From Sphingomonas sanguinis (GTDB lineage: Bacteria > Pseudomonadota > Alphaproteobacteria > Sphingomonadales > Sphingomonadaceae), in the NCBI RefSeq assembly GCF_019297835.1, contig NZ_CP079203.1:2656501-2720500 (forward strand): a stretch of DNA of 64,000 nt, in the 5' to 3' direction. A program made the position numbers and the translations under genes. Shown here in pieces: positions 1,589-20,382 of this stretch. Every line of letters begins with the position of its first letter. Within the stretch, counting starts at the first letter, position 1. Under the pieces are notes generated by a model. The model ran no database searches. It saw only the letters and a list, made by a program, of their open reading frames with translations, and was not told the DNA's origin.

Positions 1589-2175
1589 CAGGCGGGCATC
1601 CAGCCGCGTTCGCGCAAATAGCCCAGCACTGGGAGCAGCGGCATACCGAGAATGGTGAAGTGACTCCCCTCGATCCGTGAGAAGAGTTGCACCCCCGGCC
1701 CCTCGATCCGGAAACAGCCGACGCAGCCCGCGATTTCGGGCCATTCCTGATCGAGATAGCGGTCGATGAACGCGCCCGAAAGCGGACGAACATGGAGCTT
1801 TGCGCGCTCGACATGCCGCCAGACGGGGCGGCCATGCTCGGCGATGACGGCGGCGCTCCACAATTCGTGGCTCCCCCCGCTCATCCGCGCCAGATGCTCC
1901 GCCGCCTCTTCGCGGCTCTCGGGCTTGTCCAGCAACGTGCCGTCGGCGAGCGCCACGATCGAATCCGACCCCAGCACCGGCACCGGCCCGGCATTCGCCG
2001 ACACCTTCACCGCCTTCATCTCCGCCAGCGCATCGGACAGGTCGCGCGGGGACGAACCCGTCATCGCCGCCTTGACGCTCGCCTCGTCGACGCGCGCAGG
2101 CAGCGCCTCATAGGCCACGCCTGCCGCGTCGAGCATCGCCCGGCGCGAGGCGCTTTGCGACGCCAGGATAATCAT
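1588..2175 (-). CDS. maf: Maf-family nucleoside triphosphate pyrophosphatase
   Basis: 195 residues. Maf proteins hydrolyse non-canonical or methylated nucleoside triphosphates to the monophosphates and have also been linked to septum control. The N-terminal SxSxRR signature is visible (S6, S8, R11, R12), followed by the GSDS segment near residue 70 that corresponds to the usual GADT metal and base site, and a DKP motif at about 84. It overlaps the end of ppsR by 4 bases and the start of aroE by 1. Which of the Maf or YceF substrate groups it belongs to cannot be told from the sequence alone. Confidence 0.9.
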   Translation of the reverse strand: MIILASQSASRRAMLDAAGVAYEALPARVDEASVKAAMTGSSPRDLSDALAEMKAVKVSANAGPVPVLGSDSIVALADGTLLDKPESREEAAEHLARMSGGSHELWSAAVIAEHGRPVWRHVERAKLHVRPLSGAFIDRYLDQEWPEIAGCVGCFRIEGPGVQLFSRIEGSHFTILGMPLLPVLGYLRERGWMPA

Positions 2176-3002
2176 GCCTCGGCCTTTCTCTGATTCACCA
2201 GCGAGATGATCGCCGCCGCCGTCTCCTCGATCGAGCGGCGGGTGACGTCGATCACGGGCCAGTCATTGTCGGCGAACATACGCCTGGCAAAGGTCAGTTC
2301 GCGGTTCACCGCCTCCTGCTCGACATAATCGGTGTCGGGCGCCTGGTTGAGCGACAGCAGCCGGTTGCGCCGGATCGCGATCAGCCGGTCGGCACTGGTG
2401 GTCAGCCCCACGACCAGCGGCTTTTTCAGCGTGAACAGAAAGGGGGGCGGGGGGCTTTCGACCACGATCGGGATGTTGGCCGTCTTGTACCCGCGATTGG
2501 CGAGATAGATGGAGGTCGGCGTCTTGGACGAGCGGCTGACCCCCGCCAGCACGATATCGGCCTCCTCCCATTCCTCCCACGCGATGCCGTCGTCATGCGC
2601 GATGGTGAACTGGATCGCATCGACGCGCGCGAAATAGGCGGCGTCGAGGACGTGCTGGCGACCGGGCCGCATCTTGGCCTGCACACCCAGCAGCCCCGAC
2701 AGCGCGGCATTGACCGGGTCGAGCGGCGCCACCGTCGGCAGGCCGAGCGCATGACAGCGGCTCTCCAGCACGCGCCGGGTCACGGGGTTCACCAGCGTAT
2801 AGATCACCAGCCCCGGATTCTGCGCAATCTCCTGAAGGATGCGCTCCAGATGGCTTTCGGTGCGGACCATCGGCCAGAAATGCCGGACGGTTTCCACATC
2901 GTCATATTGCGCCAGCGCCGCCTTGGCGATGTTCTCCAGCGTTTCGCCGGTGGAATCGGACAGCAGGTGCAGGTGGAGCCGTGTCGTCATCGGCACGGGC
3001 AT
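2172..3002 (-). CDS. ppsR: Pyruvate phosphate dikinase/PEP synthase regulatory kinase-phosphorylase (DUF299)
   Basis: About 276 residues from the ATG at 3002; a second in-frame ATG at 2990 would give 272 residues and is nearly as likely, since neither has a good Shine-Dalgarno sequence. The family is a bifunctional ADP-dependent kinase and phosphate-dependent phosphorylase acting on PEP synthase or PPDK. The HLLSDSTGET motif is near the N-terminus, and the P-loop-like GVSRSSKT is at residues 154-161. In Caulobacter and Rickettsia the origin lies between hemE and this gene, and the same arrangement is seen here. Transcription runs away from the origin. Confidence 0.9.
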   Translation of the reverse strand: MPVPMTTRLHLHLLSDSTGETLENIAKAALAQYDDVETVRHFWPMVRTESHLERILQEIAQNPGLVIYTLVNPVTRRVLESRCHALGLPTVAPLDPVNAALSGLLGVQAKMRPGRQHVLDAAYFARVDAIQFTIAHDDGIAWEEWEEADIVLAGVSRSSKTPTSIYLANRGYKTANIPIVVESPPPPFLFTLKKPLVVGLTTSADRLIAIRRNRLLSLNQAPDTDYVEQEAVNRELTFARRMFADNDWPVIDVTRRSIEETAAAIISLVNQRKAEA

Positions 3003-3300
3003 GACTCTGTGGATAACATGGCGAGAATCGGTAGCGTAACTTCGCCGACCGGCCAAGCGGAGGTTGGGCGGTGGATAAGCGATGATTCGTCCACATCGAA
3101 TCCCACAGGCCCGATTCTTTTCCACAGCCTGTGAGTTATGGGGGCGATGAATCCGAATCCCGTTGAATCGGCGATTCCCCTTGAGTCAACGTGTTGGCAT
3201 ATCGGGGAGAGCCGCATAATCCCGACAACCAACGTGCCAACCACTTCAACAATCCATTCTTAGAATCTTCTTTAATAGAAGAAGGGGGGTCTCCTGACCG
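3003..3300. other. oriC: Probable chromosomal replication origin (oriC) between ppsR and hemE
   Basis: This non-coding stretch separates the divergent ppsR and hemE genes, as at Caulobacter Cori. It contains a perfect DnaA box on the minus strand (3008-3016) and near-matches at 3070-3078 (one mismatch), 3087-3095 (two) and 3118-3126 (one). There are eleven GANTC sites at 3003, 3025, 3084, 3098, 3113, 3149, 3155, 3165, 3173, 3183 and 3263, plus one at 3308 just outside. The right end (about 3225-3285) is visibly richer in A+T than its surroundings and could be the unwinding element. Possible hemE promoter boxes are TTGGCA at 3194 and CATAAT at 3215 (15 bp spacing). Convincing paired CtrA half-sites were not found. 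Confidence 0.8.
3008..3016 (-). promoter_or_regulatory. Perfect DnaA box in oriC
   Basis: TTATCCACA read on the minus strand, 6 bases upstream of the ppsR start. It is the only exact copy in the intergenic region. Weaker boxes follow at 3070, 3087 and 3118. Confidence 0.8.
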
Positions 3301-3329
3301 ACGTTGCGATTCGAAAGCCCCTGCTCTCC

Positions 3330-4331
3330 GTGCTGTCGGGCGAGCGGCTGGCGACACCGCCCATGTGGCTCATGCGGCAGGCGGGTCGCTATCTGCCGGA
3401 GTATCGCGAGCTGAGGGCGCAGAAGGGGGGCTTCCTGGCCCTGGCGACCGATCCGCAAGCCGCGGCGGAGGTGACGGTGCAGCCGATCCGCCGGTTCGGT
3501 TTCGACGGCGCGATCCTGTTCTCCGACATATTGATGGTCCCCTGGGCACTCGGCCAGGACCTCAGCTTCGGCGCAGGGGAGGGGCCGCGTCTGGCCCCTG
3601 CCTTGGTCGATCATGCGCTGAATGCCCTTGAGCGCGTCCCTGAGCGGCTCGACCCGGTCTATGCCACCGTGGCACGGGTCGCGGAGCAATTGCCGCCCCA
3701 GACCAGCTTCCTGGGCTTTGCGGGCTCTCCCTGGACGGTCGCGACCTATATGGTGGCGGGGCAGGGGTCGAAGGATCAGGGCGAGACGCGGCGCTTCGCC
3801 TATGCCGACCCGGCGGGGTTCGGGGCGATCATCGATGCGATCGTGGCCATGACCATCGACTATCTGGCGGGACAGGTCGCCAACGGGGTGGAGGCGGTGC
3901 AGCTGTTCGACAGCTGGGCGGGTTCTCTCAGCCCCGCGCAGTTCGAGCGCTGGGTGATCGCGCCCAATGCGGCGATCGTCGAAGGTTTCCGCGCGCGCTG
4001 TCCGGGCGTGCCGGTGATCGGTTTTCCCAAGGGGGCAGGGGGCAAGCTGCCTGCTTATGCCCGCGAGACGGGGGTGGACGCGGTCGGGCTGGACGAGACG
4101 GTCGATCCGGTCTGGGCGGGCACCTATCTGCCAAAGGGCTTGCCGGTGCAGGGCAATCTCGATCCCTTGGCGCTGATCGCCGGCGGCGAGGCGCTGGACG
4201 GCGCGGTGGATCGCATCCTCTCGGCCTTCACCGACCGGCCGCATATCTTCAATCTGGGGCATGGTATATTGCCCGACACGCCGATCGCGCATGTCGAGCG
4301 GCTGATCGCCCGTGTGAGGAAAGAGCGATGA
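3330..4331 (+). CDS. hemE: Uroporphyrinogen decarboxylase
   Basis: About 333 residues from the GTG at 3330. It decarboxylates the four acetate side chains of uroporphyrinogen III to give coproporphyrinogen III in heme synthesis. The hallmark WLMRQAGRYLPEY starts at about residue 13, and FSDILMVPWALG and GHGILPDTP are also present. The start is uncertain. The frame is open upstream to a stop at 3276 with no ATG, and a strong ribosome-binding run (AAGGGGGG, 3282-3289) sits just before an in-frame CTG at 3294, which would add 12 residues and fit the usual family length better. The gene overlaps hemJ by 4 bases (ATGA) and leads rightward out of oriC. Confidence 0.93.
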   Translation: MLSGERLATPPMWLMRQAGRYLPEYRELRAQKGGFLALATDPQAAAEVTVQPIRRFGFDGAILFSDILMVPWALGQDLSFGAGEGPRLAPALVDHALNALERVPERLDPVYATVARVAEQLPPQTSFLGFAGSPWTVATYMVAGQGSKDQGETRRFAYADPAGFGAIIDAIVAMTIDYLAGQVANGVEAVQLFDSWAGSLSPAQFERWVIAPNAAIVEGFRARCPGVPVIGFPKGAGGKLPAYARETGVDAVGLDETVDPVWAGTYLPKGLPVQGNLDPLALIAGGEALDGAVDRILSAFTDRPHIFNLGHGILPDTPIAHVERLIARVRKER

Positions 4332-12007: not shown

Positions 12008-12023
12008 TGTTCCACGTGGAACA
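12008..12023. other. parS: parS centromere site 1
   Basis: TGTTCCACGTGGAACA, a perfect 16-bp palindrome closely matching the bacterial parS consensus recognised by ParB. It lies 87 bases upstream of lysS, about 9 kb right of oriC. Confidence 0.88.
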
Positions 12024-12030
12024 CGCTCCC

Positions 12031-12039
12031 TGTGGATAA
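12031..12039 (-). promoter_or_regulatory. Perfect DnaA box beside parS1
   Basis: TTATCCACA on the minus strand, 7 bases from the end of parS1 and in the lysS leader. An exact match this close to parS may matter for coordination of replication and segregation. Confidence 0.55.
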
Positions 12040-18060: not shown

Positions 18061-18671
18061 ACGAGGATCAGGCCCGCGACTGGGCGGTGCAGCGCTTTGG
18101 GGAGGATGCGGCGTCGCGGATCGACTGGTTCCTCGACCGCGTGGTGGTGGAGAACGACCAGCAGAACCTGATCTCGCCTTCCACCATTGGCACGATCTGG
18201 AGCCGCCATGCGGTCGACTCGGCGCAGCTGATTCCTCTGGCCGACCGGGCGGATGGCCAATGGATCGATATCGGCACCGGCGGTGGCTTTCCAGGCATGA
18301 TCGTCGCCATCGCCTGGCCCGGGCGGGTGGCGCTGGTCGAGCCGCGCAAGAAGCGGGCGGAGTTCCTGCAGGAATGCGTCGACGGGCTGGGCATGGGGGA
18401 CCGGGTGACGGTCCACGCCTCGAAGATCGAGGCAGTGCCGATCAAGGCGGACATTATTTCTGCTCGCGCGGTGGCGACAGTCGAAAATCTTTTGCGCGCG
18501 GCCGTCCACTGCGGCAAACAGGAAACGCGGTGGCTGCTCCCGCGCGGCCGCCTGGACGAGCGCGAAATCAAGACCCTCAAGCGGCAATGGCGCTTCGTGT
18601 TTCACGTGGAACATAGCATCACCTCGGCGGAATCGTCGATCGTGATCCTCGACCGAGTAGAGGCCCGATGA
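18057..18671 (+). CDS. rsmG: 16S rRNA (guanine527-N7)-methyltransferase RsmG (GidB)
   Basis: 204 residues. It methylates G527 of 16S rRNA using S-adenosylmethionine. The SAM-binding motif [12 protein letters not shown] is near 70-81, with [11 protein letters not shown] after it and ARAVA in the catalytic half. A parS-like site lies within the coding sequence near the 3' end (18598-18613), where it encodes FHVEH. The gene overlaps mnmG and parA by 4 bases each, so these three genes are translationally linked. Confidence 0.94.
18598..18613. other. parS: parS centromere site 3 inside rsmG
   Basis: TGTTTCACGTGGAACA, a near-perfect parS 16-mer, located in the coding region 55 bases before parA. 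The protein has to accommodate its codons (FHVEH). Confidence 0.85.
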
Positions 18672-19459
18672 TCTGCGTTGCCATCGCGAACCAGAAGGGT
18701 GGGGTGGGCAAGACCACCAGCGCCATCAATCTCGCCACCGCGCTGGCGGCGACGGGGCTGAACGTCCTGCTGATCGACCTCGATCCGCAAGGTAACGCGT
18801 CGACAGGTCTGGGCATTCCCAACAGCCAGCGACTATTCTCCAGCTACCATGTGCTGCTGGGCGAGGCGCGGATCGACGATGCGGTGGTGCATAGCCAGGT
18901 CCCGCGTCTCGACGTCGTACCTGCCACCGTCGATCTGTCGGGGGCCGAGCTGGAGCTGGTCGATTTTGAGAATCGGACGCACCGGCTGGACCATGCGCTG
19001 CGGCGGACGCAGGGCAATTGGGACATCGTGCTGGTCGATTGCCCGCCCTCGCTGGGGCTGCTCACGATCAATGCGATGGTGGCGTCCGACTCGCTGTTCG
19101 TGCCGCTGCAATGCGAGTTCTTCGCGCTGGAGGGGCTGTCGCAGCTGTTGACGACGGTCGAGCGGATCCGTGCGCGATTCAATCCGGGCCTCGCTATTCT
19201 GGGCGTGGCGTTGACGATGTATGACCGGCGCAACCGGCTGACCGACCAAGTGTCGGCCGATGTGCGCGCCGTTTTGGGGGGTGTAGTGTTCGATACGGTG
19301 ATTCCGCGCAACGTCCGGCTGTCGGAGGCGCCCAGCCATGGCCTGCCGGCGCTGATCTATGATCATCGCTGCGTCGGCAGTCAGGCCTATATCGCACTCG
19401 CCCGTGAGATGATCGCGCGCCTGCCGTTCGGAACTCAGCCGGGAGCGGCAGCGGCATGA
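18668..19459 (+). CDS. parA: Chromosome partitioning ATPase ParA
   Basis: 263 residues. ParA binds DNA when ATP-loaded and pulls ParB-parS complexes during segregation. The deviant Walker A motif KGGVGKTT is at residues 10-17 in NQKGGVGKTTSAINLA, and DLDPQGNAST (37-46) is Walker A' . The Walker B-type VDCPPSLG is near residue 122. It overlaps rsmG and parB by 4 bases at either end. Confidence 0.96.
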   Translation: MICVAIANQKGGVGKTTSAINLATALAATGLNVLLIDLDPQGNASTGLGIPNSQRLFSSYHVLLGEARIDDAVVHSQVPRLDVVPATVDLSGAELELVDFENRTHRLDHALRRTQGNWDIVLVDCPPSLGLLTINAMVASDSLFVPLQCEFFALEGLSQLLTTVERIRARFNPGLAILGVALTMYDRRNRLTDQVSADVRAVLGGVVFDTVIPRNVRLSEAPSHGLPALIYDHRCVGSQAYIALAREMIARLPFGTQPGAAAA

Positions 19460-20382
19460 GCGGCGACACGACCGCCAAGCGCCCGCGTCCTGGTCTCGGC
19501 CGCGGTCTGGGCGCCCTGCTCGGCGATATCGCGCGCGAGGCACCGATCCGGCCGGGTGATCAGCAGACGCCGGGTGGCGTACGGATGCTGCCCGTCGGCT
19601 CGCTCCAGCCGCACCCCGACCAGCCGCGTCGCCATTTCGAGGAAGCCGCGCTCGACGAACTCGCCGCCTCGATCGCCGCGCGCGGGCTGATCCAGCCGAT
19701 CGTCGTTCGTCCGCACGGCAAGGACTATCAGATCGTCGCGGGCGAACGCCGTTGGCGAGCGGCCCAGCGCGCGCGGTTGCATGAGGTACCGGTCGTCGTC
19801 CGGGACTTCGACGACGCGCAGACGCTCGAAGTCGCGCTGATCGAGAATATCCAGCGGCAGGACCTGAACGCGATCGAAGAGGCGCAGGCCTATCAGCGCC
19901 TCGCCGGCGAGTTCGGCCATACCCAGGAGGCGCTGGCCAAGATCGTCCACAAGTCGCGCAGCCATGTCGCCAATCTGCTGCGCCTGCTCGAACTGCCCGA
20001 CACGGTGCAAGGGCAGGTGGTCAGCGGGGCGCTGTCGATGGGCCATGCGCGCGCGCTGCTCGGCGCGGACGAGGTCGAGGCGCTGGCCGATCAGGTCATC
20101 GCACGCGGCCTGAGCGTTCGCGAAACCGAGAAGCTGACCCGAGAAGCCAAGGGTGGCGGTCGCAAGGCTTCGGAGGGCGGCGAGAAGAACGCAGCCAAGG
20201 GATCGGGCGGCCAGGATGCCCCTGATGCCGACATCGCCGCGCTGGAGGGCCAGCTCGCCGATCTGCTCGGCCTGTCGGTGCGTATCGCGCATGGCGAGAA
20301 GGGGGGGACTTTGACCCTCAGCTATTCCACGCTCGATCAGCTCGACATGGTGTGTCAGCGGTTGACCGGTGAGGGGATTTGA
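19456..20382 (+). CDS. parB: Chromosome partitioning protein ParB
   Basis: 308 residues. It binds parS and spreads along DNA as a CTP-dependent clamp. The N-terminal RPGLGRGLGALLGD is the ParA-interaction motif. The CTPase motif GERRW is at 96-100, with LIENIQRQDLN following. The central helix-turn-helix (KIVHKSRSHVANLLRLLELP) reads parS. A Gly/Lys-rich linker precedes the C-terminal dimerisation domain. At least three parS-like sites lie within 9 kb upstream. Confidence 0.96.
   Translation: MSGDTTAKRPRPGLGRGLGALLGDIAREAPIRPGDQQTPGGVRMLPVGSLQPHPDQPRRHFEEAALDELAASIAARGLIQPIVVRPHGKDYQIVAGERRWRAAQRARLHEVPVVVRDFDDAQTLEVALIENIQRQDLNAIEEAQAYQRLAGEFGHTQEALAKIVHKSRSHVANLLRLLELPDTVQGQVVSGALSMGHARALLGADEVEALADQVIARGLSVRETEKLTREAKGGGRKASEGGEKNAAKGSGGQDAPDADIAALEGQLADLLGLSVRIAHGEKGGTLTLSYSTLDQLDMVCQRLTGEGI

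Follow-up and report, generated by a model that had tools for sequence, protein, structure and literature searches.

A probable chromosomal replication origin with a high load of GANTC sites between ppsR and hemE of Sphingomonas sanguinis

The chromosomal origin of Caulobacter is bordered by hemE and a gene of the COG1806/DUF299 type, a pair also named for Rickettsia (PMC1914354). A hemE-side origin is predicted in DoriC for most Sphingomonadaceae (PMC4741004), so that the location of an origin beside hemE is ordinary in this family. In Caulobacter, the methylase CcrM acts late, and new DNA remains hemimethylated, longest near the origin (PMC7987155, PMC11514494); over-expression of CcrM leads to extra chromosome copies, and the control of initiation is normal in cells without CcrM (PMC3973325). 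GANTC is by far the commonest m6A motif of Sphingomonas sp. AAP5, where it is attributed to CcrM (PMC8067484). At the Agrobacterium origin ori2, hemimethylation has been proposed as a restraint (PMC11514494).

Here, we analysed a stretch of 64,000 nucleotides of Sphingomonas sanguinis, called the window, which spans positions 2,656,501 to 2,720,500 of contig C1 (4,275,167 bases) in a genome of two contigs. An earlier note on this DNA had proposed a probable chromosomal origin in the gap between ppsR and hemE, and had pointed to the same gene pair at Caulobacter Cori and at a proposed origin in Rickettsia, as PMC1914354 also states. The gap and its borders, in window coordinates, are the following:

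2172-2990, minus strand: ppsR, DUF299/COG1806-type kinase-pyrophosphorylase, left border (PF03618 Kinase-PPPase, E 2.5e-91)
2991-3293, no strand: ppsR-hemE gap, putative oriC (gene calls, skew break and conserved divergent pair)
3294-4331, plus strand: hemE, right border, with a probable CTG start at 3294 (PF01208 URO-D, E 2.2e-109)

The gap measures 303 bp, provided that hemE starts with the CTG at 3294. Profile matches place ppsR on the minus strand and hemE on the plus strand, in agreement with the divergent orientation described before; ppsR also scores above the cut-off of NF003742 and under that of NF049928, and hemE above that of TIGR01464. Among the best 80 of 575 relatives, those with a ppsR of 97-100% identity belong to Sphingomonas, including S. 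paucimobilis, S. parapaucimobilis, S. sanguinis and S. yabuuchiae, and the divergent pair is present in all 80 Sphingomonas loci. It was likewise found in 111 of 117 further loci, all selected via ppsR, the remaining six having no hemE match within the stretch read. Searches of the 64-kb window returned zero Rfam matches for structured RNA at gathering score and no tRNA genes.

The hemE gene of the window appears to start with CTG at 3294-3296, since a strong Shine-Dalgarno sequence stands ahead of this codon and the reading frame has no ATG, GTG or TTG in the interval 49-130 bp before the W[LM]MRQAGR motif. Among 81 loci, i.e., the window plus L002-L081 (best 80 of 575), the same CTG pattern is seen in 42, window included. 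Seven loci carry a CTG preceded by a Shine-Dalgarno sequence alongside a canonical codon lacking one; canonical starts with and without a Shine-Dalgarno sequence account for 14 and 13 loci, respectively, the motif is missing in four and one locus is unclear. In the open-access literature, we found no recognisable report of CTG starts in hemE. Just ahead of the hemE ribosome site lies an inverted repeat, TCTTCT/AGAAGA (3266-3282), whose stem is conserved and whose loop is variable among close relatives, as judged by eye on the alignment.

Our main reading places the chromosomal origin (oriC) of S. sanguinis in the ppsR-hemE gap, and we give it a probability of about 0.93. The position was assessed from the GC skew of the window together with 40 20-kb stretches spread along the contig, about one fifth of its length. 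Negative values prevail between about 0.65 and 2.66 Mb, and positive ones from that point round to about 0.6 Mb. A step fit with two breaks puts the origin at 2,663,864 (2.5 and 97.5 bootstrap percentiles: 2,620,001 and 2,679,651) and the terminus roughly opposite, at 651,001, while the cumulative skew is lowest at the sample point 2,669,651. Since breaks can fall only midway between samples, with the window split at base 3150, the resolution is tens of kb, and at this resolution the sampled origin break agrees with the gap at 2,659,491-2,659,793 and supports the location proposed in the earlier note. The alternative, an origin elsewhere and a gap that is no more than a conserved divergent promoter region, draws on the weak skew directly left of the window: between 2.3 and 2.65 Mb the values are weak and mixed, and a stretch at 2.73 Mb is slightly negative. 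This alternative is contradicted by the skew fit, the parS-like sites, the cluster of DnaA boxes, the weakest duplex of the window and the conserved border genes, and we consider it highly improbable. An origin at dnaA (3.88 Mb) was rejected, as it fits the skew far worse (sse 0.0246 vs 0.0108). The dnaA gene is found at position 3,880,137 of the contig, 1.2 Mb away from the origin.

Three features to the right of the gap relate to chromosome partitioning:

12008-12023, no strand: parS-like site, two mismatches to the parS consensus
18598-18613, no strand: parS-like site, one mismatch to the parS consensus
18668-20382, plus strand: parA and parB (profile matches)

With up to two mismatches allowed, these two parS-like sites are the only ones of the whole genome; both fall in the window, 9 and 15 kb from the gap, and the reversed consensus, used as a control, gave zero sites genome-wide at the same threshold. 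The parA gene starts at 18668, 15.4 kb from the gap, as expected from the distance of about 15 kb previously noticed for parAB. An exact DnaA box (12031-12039) sits 7 bases beyond the end of the parS-like site at 12008-12023.

DnaA boxes were scored throughout against the E. coli form, TTATCCACA. The scan and the duplex stability profile yielded the following elements within the gap:

3008-3016, minus strand: DnaA box, exact match to TTATCCACA
3070-3078, minus strand: DnaA box, one mismatch
3087-3095, plus strand: weak DnaA-box-like site, two mismatches
3118-3126, plus strand: DnaA box, one mismatch
3239-3284, no strand: probable DNA unwinding element, weakest 46-bp duplex of the 64 kb

The boxes, at 3008-3126, occupy the left half of the gap. 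One perfect and three near-perfect boxes had been counted there before; the exact box and two with a single mismatch stand, but "three near-perfect" is slightly generous, since the site at 3087-3095 carries two mismatches. The gap holds three of the 14 boxes of the window with at most one mismatch, and elsewhere in the window a 300-bp stretch (25-base steps) never contains more than one. Exact boxes by themselves are not special to the gap, since the window has four, at 409, 3008, 12031 and 13633. The Caulobacter-type box, TGATCCACA, was also tried and has zero exact copies in the gap. The A+T-rich right end that had been pointed out is borne out by the stability profile: among all 46-bp windows of the 64 kb, 3239-3284 is the least stable duplex, with a value of -52.7 against -58.8 for the runner-up (nearest-neighbour values). 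In our reading, DnaA would bind the boxes at 3008-3126 and melt the A+T-rich element next to hemE (3239-3284); the putative hemE promoter lies between boxes and element.

The earlier inventory of the gap, sound as to the boxes and the A+T-rich end, had overlooked a promoter-like block and 11 sites of GANTC, the methylation word of CcrM. They are arranged as follows (GANTC sites from a motif scan):

3003-3029, no strand: GANTC sites at 3003 and 3025
3084-3117, no strand: GANTC sites at 3084, 3098 and 3113, amid the DnaA boxes
3149-3187, no strand: dense run of five GANTC sites, at 3149, 3155, 3165, 3173 and 3183, in the stretch from the boxes to the promoter
3183-3222, plus strand: conserved block GTCAA-N4-TTGGCA-N17-TAATCC, probable hemE promoter (-35 at 3194-3199, -10 at 3217-3222; from conservation)
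3263-3267, no strand: GANTC site within the unwinding region

Eleven GANTC sites in 303 bp greatly exceed what the composition of the gap would give. Randomised gaps contained on average 1.2 (mononucleotide) or 1.9 (Markov-1) sites, and 11 was reached in 0 of 5000 of each. Other 303-bp windows taken in 5-base steps over about 864 kb of the same genome had at most five, or at most four if their GC content was up to 57%. On a larger scale, the window and the stretches at 2.73 and 2.85 Mb each have about 2 GANTC per kb, as compared to 1.32/kb over the 40 stretches; other stretches, e.g., at 3.17 and 3.49 Mb, are equally high.

Three sets of loci were then compared. The Sphingomonas set consists of 80 loci, the best 80 of 575 relatives. 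For the family set, ppsR was matched in 115 of 119 genomes and 53 loci were used, 52 of them with the pair; of the 53, five came from the class-wide ppsR search, eight were given and 40 were chosen; this set may overlap the 80 Sphingomonas loci. For the class set, ppsR was matched in 267 of 387 genomes, and 64 loci were used, 59 with the pair; 24 of the loci were given and 40 were chosen, roughly one per family and with room on the contig. A further 20 stretches of 6 kb stayed outside every count.

In the Sphingomonas gaps (best 80 of 575), GANTC reaches 18.1/kb (465 sites in 25,674 bp) vs 1.76/kb in the flanks (908 in 515,095 bp), a 10-fold enrichment, and it is the commonest of the 16 palindromic NNnNN words. 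The 52 further family gaps have 16.3 vs 2.28/kb (7-fold; 1 to 18 sites per gap), and the 59 class gaps, which come from other families, 6.2 vs 1.76/kb (3.5-fold; 0 to 9 per gap). The most loaded of all the gaps counted, that of locus L210 from another genus of the family, carries 18 sites in 328 bp. In the open-access literature, we found no recognisable report on GANTC density at sphingomonad origins. The positions of the sites recur as well. Nearly all gaps have a GANTC at 105-160 bp from the estimated start of hemE (78 of the best 80 of 575 and 51 of the 52 family gaps), and another lies at 15-60 bp, in the unwinding region, in 75 and 39, respectively; the promoter core in between (60-105 bp from hemE) has one in only 9 of the best 80 and 14 of the 52.

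The middle base of the word was also considered. In the 52 family gaps it is A or T at 47% of the GANTC sites, with a gap A+T content of 45%, the pattern that conservation of the degenerate CcrM word would produce. Elsewhere the middle base is A or T more often than composition predicts (78% in the closely related Sphingomonas gaps, best 80 of 575, 69% in the class set and 57% in the genome sample), and among close relatives it is invariant at all 11 GANTC sites; for these reasons it is the 52 family gaps that carry the argument. These close relatives are 13 rows of equal length (L013 was left out for its length), in which the share of invariant columns is 98% for the fixed GANTC positions (44 columns), 94% for the DnaA boxes (36 columns) and 75% for the remainder.

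Could the gap be an ordinary DnaA origin, and its GANTC sites a by-product of A+T-rich intergenic composition or of shared ancestry? Close relatives do share ancestry, and GANTC is somewhat denser between genes (1.73 vs 1.33/kb in the genome sample, with a crude mask). The word TANTA, rare in the mostly coding flanks, is enriched too: in the Sphingomonas gaps (best 80 of 575) its fold value is close to that of GANTC, and in the family and class sets it is higher, at low counts (45 and 91 sites). We know of no methylase for TANTA here. However, composition-matched random gaps never reach 11 sites, windows of up to 57% GC stop at four, the 52 family gaps are enriched as well and their middle base matches the composition, and both the recurrent positions and the 18 sites of L210 speak against a passive origin of the cluster, which we therefore regard as unlikely.

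The second overlooked feature, the block at 3183-3222, is probably the hemE promoter, as suggested by the spacing of its -35 and -10 elements. Its core GTCAA-N4-TTG is present on the hemE strand in 72 of the best 80 Sphingomonas gaps (of 575), 23 of the 52 family gaps and 1 of the 59 class gaps, and on the opposite strand in none of these gaps. The -35/-10 pattern behaves similarly (70, 22 and 1, respectively, on the hemE strand; once on the opposite strand), and the left end of the block is itself a GANTC in 25 of the best 80 and 18 of the 52 family gaps. These features lend themselves to another explanation of the cluster, namely a role in transcription and not in replication: GcrA or RNA polymerase would read its methylation state, and the hemE and ppsR promoters would be timed in this way once the fork departs from the origin. 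The strand bias of the core and of the -35/-10 pattern, the GANTC at the left end of the block, the promoter core almost free of GANTC (9 of the best 80 gaps) and the presence of a GcrA gene in the genome (E 7.7e-40) are all in line with such timing. On the other hand, 11 sites far exceed the need of one or two promoters. Moreover, YGAKTCK, the form preferred by GcrA, is not over-represented: it accounts for 109 of the 465 sites in the Sphingomonas gaps (best 80 of 575) vs 44 of the 122 sites that the window has outside the gap, so that these counts do not support a preference of GcrA as the cause of the enrichment. Neither is the block a regulon signature, as a genome search with its first 17 bases, allowing two mismatches, gives only the block itself; the next-best matches have three, a level also reached by the reversed control. 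Overall, timing of transcription is a tentative possibility to us.

The reading in which the sites serve the origin itself needs a methylase. The genome has one match to PF01555, the N6/N4 methylase family; it is a CcrM homologue, encoded at position 2,233,341 of contig C1 (E 5.1e-180, with the model matched over its length). Its score with the CcrM model is 597.9 bits, under the cut-off of 830, and a Caulobacter control likewise stays below the cut-off. The 11 GANTC sites would be fully methylated by this homologue before initiation and hemimethylated afterwards; a hemimethylated origin would then be a mark of recent firing, lasting until CcrM acts late in the cycle, and might delay re-initiation, time hemE transcription or ease strand opening. 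We infer this putative marking of the newly copied origin from the late action of CcrM and the effect of its over-expression in Caulobacter, and from the methylation of GANTC in strain AAP5. That the sites have a direct role in the control of initiation seems doubtful to us. The same caution applies to the joint reading, a rather unlikely one, in which sphingomonad DnaA origins would be controlled by CcrM: their GANTC arrays, with the recurrent site in the unwinding region, would bar a hemimethylated origin from refiring until late-cycle CcrM. Such a lock would allow one firing per cycle, would have evolved independently of Dam/SeqA, and would act beside direct CtrA gating or replace it.

Across the class, the presence of CcrM was tried as a predictor of GANTC richness and rejected. 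CcrM was scored as absent when E was above 1e-100 or no match was found; a repeat search agreed for all seven genomes so classified, and two intermediate genomes were set aside. The class gaps of these seven genomes have 9.3 GANTC/kb (27 in 2,913 bp) vs 6.1/kb (135 in 22,280 bp) in the 50 genomes with CcrM, a trend opposite to that expected, which counts in favour of a passive by-product. Three of the seven belong to one family, f27. All five f27 genomes searched (G348, G137, G027, G218 and G286) lack a convincing CcrM and have GcrA, and three f27 gaps contain 5-7 GANTC sites each; some of the assemblies are fragmented, and the two-contig genome G218 is also without a convincing CcrM. Either another methylase is used in f27 or a factor other than CcrM favours GANTC there.

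The origin fits the expected pattern, and its exactly placed parts can be used in marker-frequency or plasmid studies of Sphingomonas. Beyond this, the 11-site gap hints at a methylation-based marking of the freshly copied origin, and its GANTC load makes it possible to test for a direct action of CcrM methylation at the chromosomal origin of an alphaproteobacterium, a question that, judging from the open-access literature searched, has apparently not been asked for Sphingomonadaceae. The answer from Caulobacter is no; Sphingomonadaceae, with gaps of up to 18 GANTC in 328 bp, offer a better test ground.

How does the gap compare with known origins? In E. coli, oriC is a DnaA origin with clustered sites of Dam, an orphan adenine methylase, one of them in the unwinding region, and with SeqA. 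The S. sanguinis gap resembles it in the cluster of methylase sites within a DnaA origin, one site being in the unwinding region; dense methylase sites in the origin and a candidate methylase for GANTC encoded by the genome were both found. It differs in the methylase and in the word, and in Caulobacter the control of initiation is independent of CcrM (PMC3973325). The secondary repABC origins of alphaproteobacteria also have a GANTC-rich origin region (PMC6090056), but they depend on RepC instead of DnaA and have other genes. The predicted oriC of Sphingopyxis granuli TFA likewise lies beside hemE and has DnaA boxes and a putative unwinding element; GANTC density is absent from the excerpted description of these Sphingomonadaceae predictions (PMC4741004).

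With Cori of Caulobacter crescentus the gap shares the border genes, the DnaA boxes and an A+T-rich element (PMC1914354), and several GANTC motifs are reported for Cori too (PMC3973325); the Sphingomonas gap, with 11 in 303 bp, seems denser than Cori. For Cori, five CtrA sites and one IHF site have been described (PMC1914354). The CtrA double box, in its strict form TTAA-N7-TTAA, has zero occurrences in the 64-kb window, and it is found in 4 of the best 80 Sphingomonas gaps (of 575), none of the 52 family gaps and 5 of the 59 class gaps. Its absence is compatible with a part for CtrA, since an influence of CtrA on replication is reported for Sphingomonas melonis (PMC8116508). The strict IHF motif WATCAA-N4-TTR is found in none of the best 80 Sphingomonas gaps (of 575) or the 52 family gaps; on the hemE strand, its core TCAA-N4-TTR is seen in 72 of the best 80, where it overlaps the promoter-like block. 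Taken together, the gap has the divergent pair, a box cluster unique in the window, an A+T-rich element and a position at the sampled skew minimum, and we file it as a member of the hemE-type DnaA origins of alphaproteobacteria, of which its GANTC load without CtrA double boxes makes it a variant.
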